Below, piece by piece: positions 976 through 12,464 of a stretch of 38,155 nt of DNA. Origin of the DNA: a candidate division FCPU426 bacterium (GTDB lineage Bacteria > Oederibacteriota > Muellerivitia > Muellerivitales > Muellerivitaceae); NCBI GenBank assembly GCA_030041545.1, contig JASHNQ010000062.1, positions 1 through 38,155 of the forward strand. Direction: 5' to 3'. Below the pieces are notes generated by a model. That model ran no database searches and was not told the origin of the DNA. It was given only the letters and a program-made list of their open reading frames with translations. Within the stretch, counting starts at the first letter, position 1. Each line of letters begins with the position of its first letter. The position numbers were made by a program, and so were the translations under genes.

Positions 976-3900
976 TTAGAACCCCAGGTTCACCCCGCCC
1001 GATAGGTTTTGTTCCGCGTAGTCGGCCAGGCCTACCTTCCCCTGGTATTGGACGAAGGCGTTAAGCCCCTTTTCGAATCCCAAATTCAACCCGGCCCCGA
1101 TCACCGCCGCGTCGGTCCCCGTTTCCGGCCCGCTCACGGTAAAGGTTCCGCCGCCGCTGATACTGCTCTCCAGGCTGTCCAGGTTGCCCTCATAAACGTG
1201 CTCCCAGGCGGCACTGAGGGCCGGGGATAGGCGGATGCCGCCCAAATCCCAGGTGCGGCTAGCCGCCACCCCCAGGTCGCTGTTCAAATAACCTTCGCCT
1301 TGCGCCCCGAAAACCAAGGGCGCCAAGGAGCCTGACTCATTGAATGCGTTGATATTCACCCCGGTGTACTGCCCCGACACGAAAGGCCCTACCTTCATCT
1401 GGTCCACCTTCCAGTCGTACCCCGCGCCCAACTGGCCCGAGATCATCAGGCCCTGGGTGCTTCCCACCGCAGTTCCGCCTAGGGCGTTGCGCTGGGTGGT
1501 GTAGCTGTTGACCCCGCCTTCGGCCATGGCCTCCGCGTGGAACGGCCCTTCGTTAAACCCTCCATAAAGGCCTACCTGCCCGCCCGTGCCGTTCACCGCG
1601 CCGGTGGATTGGCTGGTGCCCGACTGGCTGTAACCCAGCAGCAGCCCCCCCGCCAGGTTTTTGGAGAAGCGGTAATCGAGCCCGGCGACCATTCCGCCGA
1701 TGGAATACTGATAGCCCGGCGTGTTCGAGTCGCCGGTGACGGTCCCGAAATTGCCCAGGCCTTCGGCGAAGGCGCCCCAGCGCTGGGGCTGGAGGCCCTG
1801 GGACATCCCCGCTTCCTCGGGGACCGGCACATCGGCCGCGAAGCGCGGTCCCTCCCCGTTCCAGGAAACGTCGTTGGAACCCAATTCGGAACCGCCGAAC
1901 AGTTGGAACAGCCTCTGGTTCACCAGCCCCGCCTCGGCCTGGGCGGTGGCGAAACCCATCGTATACAAGGGCGTCAAATTCGCGGGCGAGATTTCGTTAT
2001 AGGCACCTGGCAGCGACGCATCCTGCATGGTATCCAGGGCCTCGATCAGGTTCTTGTTGCCCCCACCGGCGTTCAGCTGGTCCAGGGCCGCGCCCAGGGT
2101 TTTCTGGTTCGGCGTCAGGCCCAGGGATTCGAAAGTCGGCCCGGACACCTCCAGCAGCACCTCGTTCGTTTCGTAAACCAGGGACACCGAATCGGCCGAT
2201 ACCCCGTTTAACAGCGTGTTGAAAGTCCCGTATAAAGTTCCCGCGGAAAGGATGCCGAAACTTTCCGTCCCGTGCACCTGGAAGAAGGAACCGTTGCCGG
2301 GGGCCAGCTGCAAGTCACCCCCCAGGGTGGCCGCGCCGGACACCCTCAGTCCGTCCCAGCCGCCCGGCGTCGCGTAGTCCAAGGATAGCTGCAAGGTCGT
2401 CCCGGACGACGCTTGGTTGTAATACCCGCCCACCGTCACCGCCACCGGCTGGGTGATGGCCAAGGTTCCCCCGGAAACCAACAAGCTGCCCGTGCCAACC
2501 GCGTTCACGTTTCCCAACCCCAGGAACCCGCTTTCCAAAGTCGTGCCGCCGCTGTAACGGTTGTCTCCCGCCAAGGTCAATGCCCCGCCACTCACCTCGA
2601 GCCCCTCGGCCCCCGCGATCGTCCCGCTAAAATAGCCGTTTTGAAGGCTCAAGTTTCCCGCGCTTAAGCTAACCGACCCGGCCCCATCCAAGGTGCCAAT
2701 CGTCACGCCCACGCTGGTCCCGGTGGCGTTCAGGGAATCAGTCGAGCCCATCTCGACCAGGCCGATGGAAACAAAAGCGGAGCCGTTGGAACCGGCGCTC
2801 CCAGCCACGTTCCCGGTTCCGCTGCTGCTCCCGTTCCCTCCGGTGCCGCCCGTGCCGCCGTTGATATCGAGACCATCATCTGTTTGCATTACCAAAGTGC
2901 CTGCCGTGATGGACGCACTGCCGCCGTTTCCGCCGCCGCCGCCCGTGCTGTTGTTTCCGCCCGAACCGGCCGCCCCCGCGACGCCGTTCTCCCCGCCCGT
3001 GCCGCCCGCGCCCCCCTGGCCGCCCGCGCCCCCCTGGCTGCCCATTCCGCCATTTCCGCCTTGGCCCCCGGCGACCTCGAAAGTCACCCCTGAATCCATC
3101 AGGAGGCTTCCGAACGAGACTCCCGCGTTTCCGCCGTTCCCACCGGCACCGCCGGTGTCACCGCTTCCGCCGGTGCCGCCGGTACCGCCGGTGCCCCCCT
3201 GGCCTCCCGTGCCGCCCTGGCCGCCGGTACCGCCTTGGCCGCCCTGGCTTCCCACTCCCCCGGTTCCGCCCTGGCCCCCGGTGATATCCGCGAGTGTTCC
3301 GCTCCCGAGGACTAGGGTGGAGGCGTCCGCCAGCGCGTTGCCGCCAGCACCGCCGGCACCGCCCGTGCTGTCATCGGCGCCGTATCCCCCCATGGCGCCG
3401 GTTCCGCCCTGGCTCCCCGCGCCGCCTGTAAGACCCGTCCCCCCGTCCCCGCCCAAGCCGCCGTCCTGGCCCTGCCCGCCCGCACCGCCGGTGATAGTAA
3501 AGGATGTGGTGACTCCCGGCCCCAGCCCCAGCGTTCCCTGGCCCAGGGTAAGATAGGCGTTGCCGCCCGTGCCGCCATCGCCGCCCGTTTCCTGGTATCC
3601 GCCGGAATTGCCAGCGGTATTGGAGCTTCCATTGGAGCCCACATCGCCGTACCCGCCTAGGCCACCCGCGCCTCCGGCCACAGAGAAGAAAGAGCCCGCG
3701 TTTTGGAAAAGGGTTCCGATGGTCACATCCGCGTCATTCCCTTGGCCCCCTGCGCCTGCCGCTCCCTGTTGTCCGTTGGACCCGCCATCGAAGGCTTGGC
3801 CGCCTTGGCCGCCGAAACCGCCCGCTCCACCCTGGCCGCCCGTTGCCGTAAAAATGGCTCCTTGGTTCAGGGTCACGCTGGTGGCCGATAACTCGGCCAG

Positions 3901-6651
3901 TCCGCCTTCACCGCCGGTGCCGCCCGTGCCTCCATCGCCGGCATTGCCCCCCGTTCCGCCGCTTCCGTTTGATCCGCCATCCTGGCCCGAAGCTCCCGCG
4001 CCTGCGGTTCCACCGTTTCCCCCATTACCCGCGTTGCCTCCTTGGCCCCCTTGGCCTCCCGTAACATCAATTGAAGTTAAGGTGGACACCCCGCCGGCTC
4101 CCAGGCTGATTGAGCCCACTGTCAGGCTCGCGTTCCCGCCCTGGTACCCATCCCCGCCCGCGCCACCGTCGCCACCCGTTCCGCCGTTATTGCCGTCGCC
4201 GCCGTCGCCCGGATAATCCAAGTAAGCGCTGGGTGTCCCGCCGCTGCCCCCAGTGCCCCCAGTGCCGCCGTCGCCCCCCTTGCCGCCCGCCCCGCCCGTT
4301 CCGCCCATGACCGACACCGAAGCCCCGGAGTTCAAGGCAAGGGTCATCATGGAAACACTGGCCGTTCCACCGGACCCGCCCTCAGCCCCGCTTCCGCCAA
4401 CCTCGCCGTTGCCGCCCGTGCCGCCATCGCCGCCGTTATTGTCGTAGTAAGAGCTGTCGTTATAGGCCCCCCCTTGGCCGGAACTTCCCGCCCCGCCATT
4501 GCCGCCGCTTCCGCCCGCGCCGCCCGCCCCGCCAGTCCCACCGGCCGCGTTCAGGGACGCGCCGTTATCCAAGGTCACTCCAGTGGCGAGGAACTGCGCG
4601 TTTCCGCCCAAGCCTCCACTATAACCCCCGGCCCCGAGTCCGCCGTTGCCGCCATCCCCGCCGTTGCCACCGTCGCCGTTTCCAATACCGCCCGCGCCGC
4701 CGTTTCCGCCCGTGCCGCCGTCACCGTTGCCGCTGCCCGCGCCACCGGTCCCAGCGGTGAGGTCGAACTCCGAATCCTGGCCCAGGAAAAAGCTGTTGAA
4801 GGTGGCGGAAGCCGCGCCCGCGTTGCCGCCCACATAGCCGTTGGTCCCCACAGCCGCGGAATTGTAGCCGACGGCCCCATCCGCCCCGCTGACGGGCGTG
4901 TCGGTACCACCGTCGCCACCTGCCCCGCCATTGCCTCCATTCCCCCCTGCACCCAATTGCCCGCTGTTTCCGCCATTGCCACCTGTTATTTGGAGGGTGA
5001 CATCCGGAGCGGTCCAAAGGGAGCCAATGGAAACCCCCGCGTTTCCGCCTTGCCCCCCCTGCCCAGCGCCGCCGTTATTTTGTCCGCCCCCGGCCGCCCC
5101 CGCGTATCCTCCCACGTTTTGGCTTCCGCCGCCCTGGCCGCCCGTTCCGCCGGTCCCGCCCGCCCCGCCGCTTCCTCCGTCGCCAGCGCTGCCTCCCGTT
5201 ACGGTGACGCTGGAACCCGAATAAAACGTCGCGGAAGAGGAAACCAAAGAGGCCGTTCCGCCGTTTCCGCCCGGGCCGCCCGGGCCCCCGTAGCCCGCCG
5301 TGCCCCCCATGGAAGCCGGAAAACCGTTGGAGGTGAGCTCGCCCGTATAACCCGCCGCCCCGGCGTTACCGCCATTACCGCCGTTTCCGCCATCGGGGCC
5401 GAACCCGCCGTTCCCGCCCTGAACCGTGAGAAAAGTGGGCATGGTCACTCCGGCCGAACCCATGAGCAGGTTTTGAAAAGCCGCCGTGGCGCTCCCACCC
5501 GCGCCCCCCACCCGGAGACCGTCCGTGTCCCCGCCGCCGTTGGCGCCGTTCCCTCCGGTTGAGCTGTAGCCGCCGTAAAAGTCGCTCGAATCACCCCCAT
5601 TGCCGCCCGACCCACCGCTGCCGCCCGTGCCGCCCGGGGCGGAGTTGCCGCCGTTGCCGCCAGCCACGGCAACACTTTCGTTGCTTCCCAAGAGCGAGAG
5701 GGTACTCACGGAAAGGGACGCAGTGCCCCCGTTTCCTCCCCACCCGGGATCCCCCCCGTTCCCACCGTTGCCGCCCGGAGTGCCAGTTCCAGCGTTGGCG
5801 TAACTGCTGTCGCCCCCTGAGTCCCCGTAATCACCATTGCCGCCCCCCTGGCCCACGGCGCCGTCGCCGCCCGCCCCACCGACCACGCTGATGGCGACGT
5901 TGGAGCCAGTCAAGACGGCTGAGTTGGCCGAAATAGCCGCGTTTCCGCCGTTGCCGCCGGACCCACTGTAGATGGCGTCACCGCCGTTGTCGCCGCTTCC
6001 GGTAAAAGGCGAATCCCCTTCCACGCCCGGGCCGCCTTGGCCGCCCTCGCCTCCCACCGCCAGAAGGGAGGAACCCGAGTCCAACGTGACGGCGGCGCCC
6101 ACCGTTATGTAGGCGCTGCCACCGAAAGACCCCGTGGTGTTCTCGCCCAAAGCCGCGGCGGCCGTGCCAAAGGTCACACAGAGTTGCGAGCCCGAATCCA
6201 GGGTCAGTGAATTGGTGATGGTGAATTCCGCGCTGTCGTTGGTGTCCGTGGAGATGGTACTGGGGCCCGAGTTGGAGAGAGTGAAGCCCACGTTGGGCCC
6301 CAGGGTTAATTGGCTGAAGCTGAAGGCGGTGGACCCGTTGTTTCCATTATTCCCAACGACCCCAAAAGTGACTCCGCCTGTGGGGCCCAGAAGGGTGATG
6401 GGCTGGGTACCGTTGCCGACGAATTGAGTGAGGGTGATGGAGCTGTTGTTGGAAATGTCGAGTTGGATGTTGCCACCGTTGGCGGTGGCATCGATGGTCG
6501 TGATGGCCGCGCCCAAGGAGCCCGCGCTGTCATCGCCATTGGTGTCGGTGACGGAGGCGGTTTGGGCGTGAAGAGCGGAAGCTAGCAGGAAGGCGGCAAG
6601 CAGGAAAGGGATTCCAGGAAAGGCAAATCGTTTTTTTATACAGGCGGTCAA
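976..6651 (-). CDS. Giant glycine-rich (PGRS-like) autotransporter, type V secretion
   Basis: This 1,891-residue protein starts at a TTG (6649-6651) preceded by GGGGAGAG. Residues 1-29 are a signal peptide ending near ALHA. From about 165 to 1310 the passenger alternates glycine-rich blocks (GGNGG, GGTGG, GGAGG) with short strand-like segments such as ASLSVSTLSLLGSN or ASVSMMTLALNSGA. I count about 16-17 such modules, spaced roughly 60-75 residues. Residues about 1355-1400 (LTLAGDNRYSGGTTL) match the autotransporter-associated beta-strand repeat. Residues about 1500-1585 form a linker, and about 1623-1891 form a 12-stranded autotransporter barrel (WGAFAEGLG to a terminal GVNLGF, ending in Phe). 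It should be exported by Sec, inserted in the outer membrane and display the passenger outside. Only two cysteines are evident. The ligand is unknown; adhesion is a guess from the family. Confidence 0.9.
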   Translation of the reverse strand: MTACIKKRFAFPGIPFLLAAFLLASALHAQTASVTDTNGDDSAGSLGAAITTIDATANGGNIQLDISNNSSITLTQFVGNGTQPITLLGPTGGVTFGVVGNNGNNGSTAFSFSQLTLGPNVGFTLSNSGPSTISTDTNDSAEFTITNSLTLDSGSQLCVTFGTAAAALGENTTGSFGGSAYITVGAAVTLDSGSSLLAVGGEGGQGGPGVEGDSPFTGSGDNGGDAIYSGSGGNGGNAAISANSAVLTGSNVAISVVGGAGGDGAVGQGGGNGDYGDSGGDSSYANAGTGTPGGNGGNGGDPGWGGNGGTASLSVSTLSLLGSNESVAVAGGNGGNSAPGGTGGSGGSGGNGGDSSDFYGGYSSTGGNGANGGGDTDGLRVGGAGGSATAAFQNLLMGSAGVTMPTFLTVQGGNGGFGPDGGNGGNGGNAGAAGYTGELTSNGFPASMGGTAGYGGPGGPGGNGGTASLVSSSATFYSGSSVTVTGGSAGDGGSGGAGGTGGTGGQGGGSQNVGGYAGAAGGGQNNGGAGQGGQGGNAGVSIGSLWTAPDVTLQITGGNGGNSGQLGAGGNGGNGGAGGDGGTDTPVSGADGAVGYNSAAVGTNGYVGGNAGAASATFNSFFLGQDSEFDLTAGTGGAGSGNGDGGTGGNGGAGGIGNGDGGNGGDGGNGGLGAGGYSGGLGGNAQFLATGVTLDNGASLNAAGGTGGAGGAGGSGGNGGAGSSGQGGAYNDSSYYDNNGGDGGTGGNGEVGGSGAEGGSGGTASVSMMTLALNSGASVSVMGGTGGAGGKGGDGGTGGTGGSGGTPSAYLDYPGDGGDGNNGGTGGDGGAGGDGYQGGNASLTVGSISLGAGGVSTLTSIDVTGGQGGQGGNAGNGGNGGTAGAGASGQDGGSNGSGGTGGNAGDGGTGGTGGEGGLAELSATSVTLNQGAIFTATGGQGGAGGFGGQGGQAFDGGSNGQQGAAGAGGQGNDADVTIGTLFQNAGSFFSVAGGAGGLGGYGDVGSNGSSNTAGNSGGYQETGGDGGTGGNAYLTLGQGTLGLGPGVTTSFTITGGAGGQGQDGGLGGDGGTGLTGGAGSQGGTGAMGGYGADDSTGGAGGAGGNALADASTLVLGSGTLADITGGQGGTGGVGSQGGQGGTGGQGGTGGQGGTGGTGGTGGSGDTGGAGGNGGNAGVSFGSLLMDSGVTFEVAGGQGGNGGMGSQGGAGGQGGAGGTGGENGVAGAAGSGGNNSTGGGGGNGGSASITAGTLVMQTDDGLDINGGTGGTGGNGSSSGTGNVAGSAGSNGSAFVSIGLVEMGSTDSLNATGTSVGVTIGTLDGAGSVSLSAGNLSLQNGYFSGTIAGAEGLEVSGGALTLAGDNRYSGGTTLESGFLGLGNVNAVGTGSLLVSGGTLAITQPVAVTVGGYYNQASSGTTLQLSLDYATPGGWDGLRVSGAATLGGDLQLAPGNGSFFQVHGTESFGILSAGTLYGTFNTLLNGVSADSVSLVYETNEVLLEVSGPTFESLGLTPNQKTLGAALDQLNAGGGNKNLIEALDTMQDASLPGAYNEISPANLTPLYTMGFATAQAEAGLVNQRLFQLFGGSELGSNDVSWNGEGPRFAADVPVPEEAGMSQGLQPQRWGAFAEGLGNFGTVTGDSNTPGYQYSIGGMVAGLDYRFSKNLAGGLLLGYSQSGTSQSTGAVNGTGGQVGLYGGFNEGPFHAEAMAEGGVNSYTTQRNALGGTAVGSTQGLMISGQLGAGYDWKVDQMKVGPFVSGQYTGVNINAFNESGSLAPLVFGAQGEGYLNSDLGVAASRTWDLGGIRLSPALSAAWEHVYEGNLDSLESSISGGGTFTVSGPETGTDAAVIGAGLNLGFEKGLNAFVQYQGKVGLADYAEQNLSGGVNLGF

Positions 6652-6712
6652 AAGTCTCTCCCCATGTCAGTGGATGAGGGCGAAGGCGTTAAAATTAAAT
6701 AGGAATAGGGCG

Positions 6713-8918: not shown

Positions 8919-11900
8919 TTAAACCTTTGAGAATTCCTTAGTCGTGCTGGCGGGCTTGCTGGACTGCGGGGCTTCATTTCCGGACAGGATTATCTCCGTC
9001 ATTTGCATGGCGTTGTCCATCTTGGGGTAGCGGACGGCGCGGTAGCCGCGGACTTCCTCGGGCAGGTTTAAGGCCTTCTCCCACCTTTCATACTGCCCTG
9101 GGTTCGTGTATTCAAAACGGTCGACCAGGCCCCCATACCATTCCCTAAAGGCCTTTTCCCTTTTGTGCCAGGCGGGAAACAGGCGGCGCAGGAACTTCAT
9201 GCGCTTCATCAGGTTCAACATCCAATCCCGGCTTTTCAGGTCAAAGCGGATCTTCATTCCCAAAACGTCGAATTCGGGCCGGTTGAAGTGGCGGTACACG
9301 ATCCTATCGCCGGCGGCCAAGTCCACCTTGTAACGCCGGGCATCCTTCTCGTATTTTTCCGGGCGGGTCAAAAGATGGGCCACGTAAACCTCATCCTTGA
9401 TCTCCATCACCTTGTGCAGGTGCCTCACCACGGCCTTGCTGACCGAGTAATCCGAGGCCTTGGTGTCCTTTTTCATCGTGGTCATCACCCGGTCCGCGTA
9501 TTGGCGGGCATAAGCGGGTCCGCCCCATTCCATAAGGTCATAGAGCCGGTTCACGAACTGCACTCGGGTGTCCTCGTCCCCTTCCCAGGCCTTGAGGAAT
9601 TCCCCGGCCATTTCCAGGTATCTTTCGGCGCGCGCGCCCCGCAACAGGGCTGCTTTTTTCATCAAGACTTCCTGGAAGCCCATGCGGACTTCCGCTTGGT
9701 ATTTCTCGGGATGAACGGCCAAATCCCGCCCCAGGTGGAAGGCGTCGATGTTGTGCTTGGCCGCGCTGGGGCTGAAGTTGTCCTTGATGGCGTCGATCAT
9801 CTCGTTGAGCGTCAGGGGCAAGAGGCCGCGCTGGAAGGCCACGCCCAGGAGAAGGATGTTCACGAACACCTTATTGCCCAAGTAGTCCTCGGCGATCTTG
9901 CTCATGTCCGCGCCCGCGTAGTCCTTGGTGTACTTCTTGAACAGGTCGGCCAGTTGGGAGGGGTTGAAATCGTCCAGGCCCATGAGGGAAAGGATGGTGT
10001 GGGTCTTGTGGGTGTTCACCACCGAATGGGTGTATTCCTTGGAGCCGATTCGGGACTGCAGGCGGGGGTCGATGCCCCGGGCCGCCTCCAGGATGTCCAA
10101 CCCCAAAAGCAGGTCGGCCTTGCCCTGGGGCATGAGGGGCGCCACCACCTTCTTTTTCTTGGAGAAGGTGATCATGGAATAGACGCCGCCGTTCCTGATG
10201 GCGATTCCCTTCTTGTCGCAGAAGGTCACGTGGTAGCCGTGCTTCATGGCGGCCCTCACCAAAACCGCCGTGGAGCTGCCGATTCCCATGCCGCCCACGC
10301 CCGCGATATAGCCCCTCCAGTCCTCGTCGAACGGGAAAGGCTCGGGCGCCGGGATATGGGAAGGGTCGGGTAATGGGACGGCGGCGGGCTTGCGCTTGCG
10401 GATGATGGTGAGTTCCTCGAAGGCCGGGCAGGCCTTGATGCGCGTGCAGGCCATGTCGGACACGCAATAGGAAAGGTCGGTGGACATCTTGGGGCCGTAG
10501 GGGGTCTCCTCGATGGCCAGGCCCGGGCAGCCGGTGAGCCTCGTGCATTCCAGGCAGTACTCGCAGGTGTGGTCGTTGACGTTGATGCGCTTTTGCACCG
10601 GCAAATAGCCCCGCTTGGCCTTCTGGCGGGAAAGTTCCTGCCGCTTGCGGCGGTGGTAAGTGATGCCGCATTCCTTGTCCGCGATCACGAATTTCACCCC
10701 GGGTTCCAGGATCATATCCTCCAATATTTCCCGGTAATCCTCCCGCAGCTCGGGGTTGACCCTAGCGATGGAAACATCCAGGCCCTTGGTGAGGCCCCCC
10801 AGCACCTTCTCAATGTCCTGGCCGAAGGTGGGATTGCCCATGAGGTCCCTCTCCATGCCCGGATGGGGCTGGTGGCCGGTCATGGCGGTGGTCTTGTTGT
10901 CCAGGACCACGTAAAGCACGTCCTGATTGTTCTTGATGGAATCCGAGATTTCGGCCAGGCCCGAGTGGAAGAAGGTGGAATCGCCGATGAAGCACACCGA
11001 CTTGTTGGTGGAAAAGGGCGAAAGCCCCGCGCCCGTGCCGCCGCCCAGGCCCATGCCGATATAGTTGTGCATCAGGGGGCCGTTGGGGGGCATAAAGAGC
11101 AACACGTAACAGCCCGCGTCACCGTGGAAGAGGATGTCGAGGGGCTCGCGCTTATGCTTCTTCTTCATGTACTCCTTGTCCTTGAAGTCCGCCACGAGTT
11201 GCAAGAAGACCGAGGAGGAATCCCGGTGCGGGCAGCCGGGGCAAAAGGACGGAGTGCGCTTGGGAATGGACACCTCGAACATCCTGAGGCTGTCCATGAA
11301 CTGGATTTCTTTTTTGACCTTCGAGGTGGATACCTCGAATTGGGCCAAGAGCGGCGCCAGGGTCCTCATGACCACGGCGGGGCTTAAGCCCTGGTCCGCG
11401 GGAAAACCCTTCAAGTCGTCCGGAAAGGACTTGCCCCAAACCGGGGGAACCGTTTTTATTTTTCCGGACTGTTGAAGATCCATGACGATGTTCCGGACCT
11501 GGTTTTCGATGAACCGCCGTTTTTCCTCCACCACCACCAGGGTGTCGGTGTATTTCAGGACTTCCTGGACGGCTTCGGGATCCACGGGATAGGTCAGGCC
11601 CAACTTGAGGATGGGAAACTTGCCGGTCAGCCCGAACTCGGACAGGGCCTGTTCCAGGTAGGTGTAGCTGGCGCCGGCCGTGATAAAGGCAAAGGGAGCC
11701 CTGCCCTTGGCGGACAAAAGCTGGTTGACGCCCTTCTTGCGGGCCGCGGCCAAAAGCCGGGGGAACTTGACCTCCAGGGCCTCCTGCTCCAGGGGCACGG
11801 TATGGGGGGGAAGGACGATACTATGCTTGATGTCGAAGGTGGAACTGTCGATCGTGGCCTTGTTCAGGGTGGAAAAACCCTTGGGCGGCTGGTTGGGGTA

Positions 11901-12464
11901 GACCTCCACGCTGCCACCCCCCTCCGCCGTATAGGTGATGAGAAGGTAGGCGATGAAAAGGTCGGCTTCCTCGGAAAGCTCAAAGGCCAGCTTGACCCAG
12001 TCCTTGATCTCCTGGAAGGTTGCGGGCTCCAAAACCGGGATAAAAAGGTGGTCGGAAAGGCGCCGGGAATCCACAGGCACCTGGGTGGTGTCGCTCCAGG
12101 GGTCATCGCCGATGACAATCACGCCCGCCCCCTGATGGCCCCTCTTGGCCAGGGAGGCCGCCACCAAGGCGTCCGCGGCCACATGGAACCCCACGGATTT
12201 CATGACCGTAATAGCCCTTAAACCGGCCATTTGGGCGCCATTGAGCCTGGCGGCCGAAAGTGCCTCGTTATTGGCGATTTGGGCGAGGATGCCGTGTTCT
12301 TTCAGGTAGGGGGTGGCGTTGGCCGCCGCTTCGAAGACGTCCGCCACGGGGGAGCCGGGATAGCCGGTAAGCAGATTAAGGCCTGCTTCCAGCCCGCCTT
12401 TCAGGATCAGCTCGTTTCCGGTATAGGTTTCGGTGCCCTTTTCTTTAACAAATCTTGGGTCCAT
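8919..12464 (-). CDS. Indolepyruvate:ferredoxin oxidoreductase, fused alpha/beta single chain
   Basis: This 1,181-residue enzyme oxidatively decarboxylates aryl-pyruvates to aryl-acyl-CoA while reducing ferredoxin. Domains in order: pyrimidine-binding domain (about 15-200); a middle domain with VVEEKRRFIENQ (311-322); thiamine-diphosphate domain (about 405-600) with FCPGCPHR (407-414), GDAGCY (448-453) and FIGDST to LDNKTTAMTG (492-530); and a ferredoxin-like segment. The segment has Cys634, 637, 640 and 646, then 667, 673 and 679. Next are the gamma domain from GYIAGVGGMGIG (718-729) and a C-terminal helical extension (about 930-1181) found in long fused forms. The length fits the one-polypeptide family rather than separate IorA/IorB subunits. 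The ATG at 12464 has a weak AAGG site. Such enzymes are oxygen-sensitive, which suggests anaerobic amino-acid metabolism. The substrate among aryl or branched 2-oxoacids cannot be read from sequence. Confidence 0.9.
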   Translation of the reverse strand: MDPRFVKEKGTETYTGNELILKGGLEAGLNLLTGYPGSPVADVFEAAANATPYLKEHGILAQIANNEALSAARLNGAQMAGLRAITVMKSVGFHVAADALVAASLAKRGHQGAGVIVIGDDPWSDTTQVPVDSRRLSDHLFIPVLEPATFQEIKDWVKLAFELSEEADLFIAYLLITYTAEGGGSVEVYPNQPPKGFSTLNKATIDSSTFDIKHSIVLPPHTVPLEQEALEVKFPRLLAAARKKGVNQLLSAKGRAPFAFITAGASYTYLEQALSEFGLTGKFPILKLGLTYPVDPEAVQEVLKYTDTLVVVEEKRRFIENQVRNIVMDLQQSGKIKTVPPVWGKSFPDDLKGFPADQGLSPAVVMRTLAPLLAQFEVSTSKVKKEIQFMDSLRMFEVSIPKRTPSFCPGCPHRDSSSVFLQLVADFKDKEYMKKKHKREPLDILFHGDAGCYVLLFMPPNGPLMHNYIGMGLGGGTGAGLSPFSTNKSVCFIGDSTFFHSGLAEISDSIKNNQDVLYVVLDNKTTAMTGHQPHPGMERDLMGNPTFGQDIEKVLGGLTKGLDVSIARVNPELREDYREILEDMILEPGVKFVIADKECGITYHRRKRQELSRQKAKRGYLPVQKRINVNDHTCEYCLECTRLTGCPGLAIEETPYGPKMSTDLSYCVSDMACTRIKACPAFEELTIIRKRKPAAVPLPDPSHIPAPEPFPFDEDWRGYIAGVGGMGIGSSTAVLVRAAMKHGYHVTFCDKKGIAIRNGGVYSMITFSKKKKVVAPLMPQGKADLLLGLDILEAARGIDPRLQSRIGSKEYTHSVVNTHKTHTILSLMGLDDFNPSQLADLFKKYTKDYAGADMSKIAEDYLGNKVFVNILLLGVAFQRGLLPLTLNEMIDAIKDNFSPSAAKHNIDAFHLGRDLAVHPEKYQAEVRMGFQEVLMKKAALLRGARAERYLEMAGEFLKAWEGDEDTRVQFVNRLYDLMEWGGPAYARQYADRVMTTMKKDTKASDYSVSKAVVRHLHKVMEIKDEVYVAHLLTRPEKYEKDARRYKVDLAAGDRIVYRHFNRPEFDVLGMKIRFDLKSRDWMLNLMKRMKFLRRLFPAWHKREKAFREWYGGLVDRFEYTNPGQYERWEKALNLPEEVRGYRAVRYPKMDNAMQMTEIILSGNEAPQSSKPASTTKEFSKV

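Follow-up and report, generated by a model that had tools for sequence, protein, structure and literature searches.

The window analysed here is a stretch of 38,155 nucleotides from contig JASHNQ010000062.1 (assembly GCA_030041545.1) of a candidate division FCPU426 bacterium, and the gene of interest is the 1,891-residue reading frame listed first in Table 1. Judged from its sequence, the product is a large type Va autotransporter of an uncultured bacterium, in which a long glycine-rich passenger lies between a putative Sec-type signal peptide and an outer-membrane barrel. A preliminary description had called it a PGRS-like passenger built of some 16 to 17 modules on a classical type V barrel. 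The downstream convergent gene encodes a glutathione peroxidase, and no conserved neighbour or operon was found for the autotransporter gene among the relatives fetched.

Table 1. Features of the autotransporter gene and its product (window positions; residue numbers refer to the protein)
Feature	Positions	Strand	Basis
Autotransporter gene, 1,891 residues, TTG start	976..6651	-	Open reading frame list; PF03797 barrel; homologues over the C-terminal third, at most 58% identity
GGGGAG, probable ribosome-binding site, 6 nt upstream of the TTG	6658..6663	-	Sequence reading
Putative Sec-type signal peptide, residues 1-30 (KKR, hydrophobic stretch, end ...SALHAQ)	6562..6651	-	Sequence reading by eye
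N-terminal passenger part ahead of the glycine-rich modules, residues 31-176	6124..6561	-	Sequence comparison
16 modules, residues ~177-1287, each a predicted beta-helix coil (22-27 residues) plus a GGX loop (23-57 residues)	2791..6123	-	Segmentation, core profile, periodicity
Stretch modelled with AlphaFold2, residues 682-996, five cores and four loops	3664..4608	-	Strand pairs of 10+5 residues with a polyproline/polyglycine-II bundle between
DNA tandem repeats of 9/18 bp encoding (GGX)n of one loop, in phase with the GGX triplets	3131..3283	-	Repeat analysis
Single sub-threshold PATR match, residues 1355-1377	2521..2589	-	PATR profile, TIGR02601
Autochaperone-like C-terminal passenger region, residues 1400-1500	2152..2454	-	Sequence reading by eye only
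Outer-membrane beta-barrel with C-terminal Phe (...GGVNLGF)	979..1770	-	PF03797, E 4.6e-48 at 1042-1770

Whole-protein scans against Pfam (hmmscan) and NCBIfam listed no family, composition filtering being the probable cause, and the protein was therefore scanned in pieces. Scanned alone, the last 391 residues matched PF03797 (E 1.1e-47) and TIGR01414 (E 7.8e-18), in agreement with the classical barrel described earlier. The PATR segment described as standard is borne out only in part, by one match that falls under both curated cut-offs (23.8 bits against 27 for the PATR profile and 19.0 against 19.85 for TIGR02601). PATR repeats are common in type Va autotransporters, although not universal, and the passengers of most of these proteins are beta-helical. 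An autochaperone domain at the C-terminus of the passenger is a further type Va feature (PMC5767081), to which the region at residues 1400-1500 may correspond. At the opposite end, residues 31-176 contain a cap-like motif, GSLGAAITTI, whose counterpart in paralogues is GSLGWAVTTLN; residues 1-180 gave no Pfam match, and no catalytic domain was found in the Pfam and NCBIfam scans of the pieces.

The modules are 45 to 79 residues long (n=16 by segmentation), with 15 copies recovered by a profile of their core, close to the number first described. Glycine recurs with two periods, one of 3 residues (autocorrelation 0.45 at lag 3) and one of 73-76 residues; the smoothed periodicity over 60-90 residues was 0.42, a value reached in none of 2,000 block shuffles (maximum 0.28). 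The non-glycine part of each module is a two-strand core with the consensus GGSASVSAGSLTLGSGSSFTVTGGNG, of which paralogues having the core hold 5-9 copies. Shuffling each family protein 20 times by residue and 20 times by triplet yielded no copy, so the profile captures more than composition; it was built and iterated partly on the window protein and its family, and for this reason the copy count is descriptive and the shuffles do not test the copies independently. In the Gly-Gly-X (GGX) loops that alternate with the cores, the arms are 60% glycine, while the less regular tips are 21% glycine, 10% aspartate and 7% tyrosine. The tandem repeats within one loop are a possible site of length change through slippage.

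Residues 682-996 were modelled with AlphaFold2 from a 22-row family alignment, giving a mean predicted local distance difference test score (pLDDT) of 84.9 and a predicted template modelling score (pTM) of 0.73, with cores mostly above 90 and most loop arms near the cores above 80. Every module in the model has strands of 10 and 5 residues, and the GGX blocks have no regular strand or helix. When compared by VIA-align 2 with the chains that Foldseek ranked highest, the model matched 7jjv_A, the nine-helix polyproline-II (PPII) bundle of a springtail antifreeze protein, at Z 18.7 and a root-mean-square deviation of 1.3 Å over 113 residues, far ahead of the other rows. Among the springtail and snow flea antifreeze proteins (7jjv, 2pne, 3bog) the scores were Z 18.7 and 7.5, and 7jjv and the snow flea protein were also the top Foldseek ranks. 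The 45% residue identity in the 7jjv_A match stems from the glycine that both have in common and is no sign of descent; PDB sequence searches with the module profile and with the barrel returned no match. Behind 7jjv_A came beta-helices at Z 8-10 (SRRP, tapirin, pertactin). It is the GGX blocks that superpose on 7jjv and the cores that superpose on the beta-helices. The alternation of strand-forming segments with GGX blocks proposed in the preliminary description is thus borne out by both core profile and model, and the polyglycine-II (PGII) packing it suspected is now predicted. In a separate Foldseek comparison with viral models, the same stretch matched a DUF7932 protein of Terrestrivirus with probability 1.00 at a TM-score of only 0.36, perhaps another architecture of strands plus PGII.

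A short-loop paralogue from the same genome was modelled with a pLDDT of 87.7 and a pTM of 0.89. Each of its coils has the identical 10+5 strand pair; the strands are as long as in the window protein and the coil is shorter. Its best structural match was Vag8 (Z 19.8, 3.2 Å, 335 residues aligned), followed by HMW1, EtpA, Ag43, UpaB and other beta-helices. Cores are spaced 31-44 residues apart in short-loop paralogues and 56-79 in the window protein (spacings spanning a missed core excluded). When seven paralogue rows were aligned to the short-loop model, only one had an insertion within a strand, of a single residue, and in the insertion-rich rows about four fifths of the inserted residues fell in the glycine loops (92-94 of 111-117 in four rows). 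Because model matches, core spacing and insertion positions combine in this way, the module is, on the predicted structures, one beta-helix coil and the GGX block an expanded inter-coil loop. The strand-forming segment of the preliminary description is therefore a single coil in a beta-helix of the usual autotransporter type and no module of a separate kind. The finding that had been named as fatal to the earlier proposal, an ordinary right-handed beta-helix with no distinct module, holds for the spine and fails for the loops: the passenger appears to be a standard beta-helix whose inter-coil loops became PGII hairpins.

The barrel, the modules and the loop expansion can be read from the sequence alone. 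Taking the models into account, we think it likely that the protein is a type Va autotransporter with a right-handed beta-helix passenger, in which the loops of about 16 successive coils, all expanded at a matching position, form antiparallel PGII pairs. Adjacent GGX hairpins would pack side by side and make up one continuous bundle projecting fin-like from the rod, with glycine pointing inward, small polar residues (N, T, A, Q, S, D) outward and the less regular turns, richer in aspartate and tyrosine, at the free edge. The signal peptide would direct Sec export, the barrel would insert and the passenger cross by the type V route as in other members of the family, and folding would proceed from the C-terminal end with the help of the autochaperone-like region. 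The model supports a beta-helix spine with a PGII fin, whose variable tips may be displayed as a surface for binding or self-association, by analogy with phage S16 gp38 and self-associating autotransporters. By the same analogies, the role is most likely that of an adhesin or a cell-surface matrix protein. The chances are about even that the whole amounts to a composite fold not described before, an outer-membrane beta-helix carrying a continuous docked PGII bundle with one hairpin per coil, which serves as a rigid, extendable scaffold presenting some 16 variable tip loops and which arose in one lineage by the lengthening of ordinary autotransporter loops.

Several points weigh against this interpretation. 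All of the structural support is prediction, and the 315 residues modelled are less than a third of the approximately 1,110 in the glycine-rich part. The loop tips have a pLDDT of only 53-65, the five models span 68 to 85, and the PGII angles, helix count and handedness were taken from the structural matches; AlphaFold2 may also have learned the snow-flea fold. On the supporting side, aromatic residues are commoner in the tips (14/171) than in the arms (13/568; p 0.0009), but this enrichment is descriptive, the tips having been delimited after the sequence was seen.

Judged on the models, the best structural precedent is the "polyglycine sandwich" of Salmonella phage S16 gp38, in which turns of a beta-helix extend into glycine-rich PGII helices and receptor binding has been proposed for the distal loops, which are variable (PMC6851490). 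The window protein is predicted to share that general plan. Whereas gp38 is a five-ring beta-helix on a phage fibre, with two extended turns and 10 PGII helices (PMC6851490), the window protein has about 16 coils, each with a predicted hairpin, on a bacterial outer-membrane protein. A solvent-exposed, glycine-rich PPII bundle also occurs in the N-terminal domain of Obg GTPases (PMC8409303), which act in the ribosome pathway and, unlike the window protein, are not secreted repeat proteins; the weak match of the module profile to an Obg of another genome (L052), whose solved relatives carry such a bundle, speaks in favour of the predicted fin. Among type Va autotransporters, Vag8, Ag43, UpaB and pertactin are built, as the window protein is predicted to be, from a signal peptide, a beta-helix passenger and a C-terminal barrel; the GGX/PGII loops predicted on 16 coils of the window protein come in addition. 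Stiff glycine-rich double prongs of this type are known so far chiefly from antifreeze, phage-tip and mycobacterial PGRS proteins. The literature searched yielded no account of an autotransporter passenger whose successive coils bear GGX/PGII loops, although its thin coverage of subscription journals makes this weak evidence of novelty, and with the same coverage no literature joining FCPU426 and autotransporters was found.

It is possible, if somewhat doubtful, that the passenger has the fold proposed above and yet serves mainly as a physical surface coat, an acidic hydrated brush or biofilm matrix that may be bridged by cations, and not as a specific adhesin. The passenger is acidic, containing 62 Asp and 15 Glu but a single Lys and a single Arg, and the long rod, the many paralogues of differing length and the absence of any catalytic domain from the Pfam and NCBIfam scans of the pieces would suit such a role. 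A coat nevertheless leaves the irregular, aromatic-enriched tips unexplained, and RTX-type calcium nonapeptides are rare in the passenger (2-3, where about 1 is expected by chance).

A different objection concerns the fold itself. The GGX blocks could be flexible, disordered spacers on a plain beta-helix, on which AlphaFold2 imposed a packed bundle drawn from the known snow-flea fold. The low confidence at the loop tips and the moderate agreement between models would fit such spacers, and in simulation plant glycine-rich proteins were mostly heterogeneous and formed no stable bundle (PMC13243192). We consider this unlikely, in view of the three-residue glycine phase that the GGX blocks hold and that disordered linkers do not need, the confidence of most near-core loop arms and the closeness of the 7jjv match.

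It would be surprising if the protein bound or adhered to ice, with its PGII bundle working as in springtail antifreeze proteins, even though the nearest solved fold belongs to one of these and the predicted packing of the GGX blocks resembles theirs. In the springtail proteins the outward residues alternate between hydrophobic and hydrophilic from helix to helix, which creates one ice-binding face (PMC10235112). No such alternation was apparent from a simple residue count of the window protein, whose two hairpin arms are comparably polar (polar share 0.55 and 0.56; hydrophobic residues plus Thr 0.41 and 0.30; a crude count of faces), and a shared fold does not imply a shared function.

The comparison with PE_PGRS proteins made in the preliminary description stands for composition and predicted fold and does not extend to family membership. 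Mycobacterial PE_PGRS proteins likewise combine a GGX composition and modular length with predicted PGII packing and a place at the cell surface (PMC9436101, PMC10216338), a packing also treated by simulation (PMC13243192). They possess a PE domain, ESX-5 export and a hydrophobic short-loop edge, where the window protein has a beta-helix spine and an outer-membrane barrel of its own. Actual transfer of a PE_PGRS-family protein into a diderm is scarcely credible despite the similar GGX composition and predicted packing (PMC9436101), as no PE domain was matched by Pfam in the first 180 residues, the string GRPLI is absent from the protein, and the short-loop paralogues suggest that the protein arose locally from an autotransporter beta-helix.

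When the window genome and its relatives were searched, barrel homologues turned up within a single family and, beyond it, in one other genome of the order. A contig scan with the full-length protein gave no relative and the barrel alignment was needed; with it, the named genomes yielded FCPU426 contigs (L041, L042, L044) and a metagenome bin labelled Proteobacteria (L038-L040, L043). Kinship, as distinct from a marker-gene tree, puts the window in or beside FCPU426. In the searches made here, the family appears only around that candidate division. Its paralogues are numerous and differ in length, and the count of GGxGG motifs across the family ranges from 0 to 97. On the barrel tree, GGX-rich passengers sit on separate branches among GGX-poor ones, a mosaic whose direction probably cannot be read, some GGX-poor members being incomplete at contig ends or split by frameshifts. 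In 117 genomes the module profile gave only weak matches outside the family, to an Obg GTPase (L052) and a small glycine-rich protein, and in 249 genomes of the order of a distant alphaproteobacterial barrel match, a group without a positive control, it found nothing at E 1e-8. The small glycine-rich protein, which looks secreted and comes from an unrelated genome (L051:1372-2727(+); module profile E 5.6e-9), has GGX blocks flanking a strand-like segment.

Few solved structures contain PGII bundles, and how these arose is obscure. Short- and long-loop members occur together in one genome on the same predicted beta-helix coil, and the family may thus offer a direct view of how such a bundle grew from an ordinary fold. 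It also provides a diderm system for testing the folded state of PGRS-like GGX repeats.

Four sister autotransporters (L026, L027, L028, L029) have another passenger repeat, like STAGSATITNNGNLNF, and lack GGX loops. In genome G001, a frameshift, whether a real mutation or an assembly error, apparently splits an autotransporter gene at L023:7758-11734(-), so that passenger and barrel lie in separate frames. A gene of about 660 residues directly follows the autotransporter in four relatives (L023:1854-3854(-), L031:6774-8762(+), L036:1444-3441(-), L037:206-2191(-)); the L023 copy has an O-antigen-ligase domain (PF04932, 3.5e-22) and TPR repeats, the other three look alike, and the product may glycosylate the passenger. 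The window gene is without this neighbour, and several PF04932 proteins are encoded elsewhere in its genome. Within the window, positions 8919-12464(-) encode a divergent, fused form of an indolepyruvate ferredoxin oxidoreductase family protein (436.7 bits against a model cut-off of 816; NCBIfam 1.7e-130).
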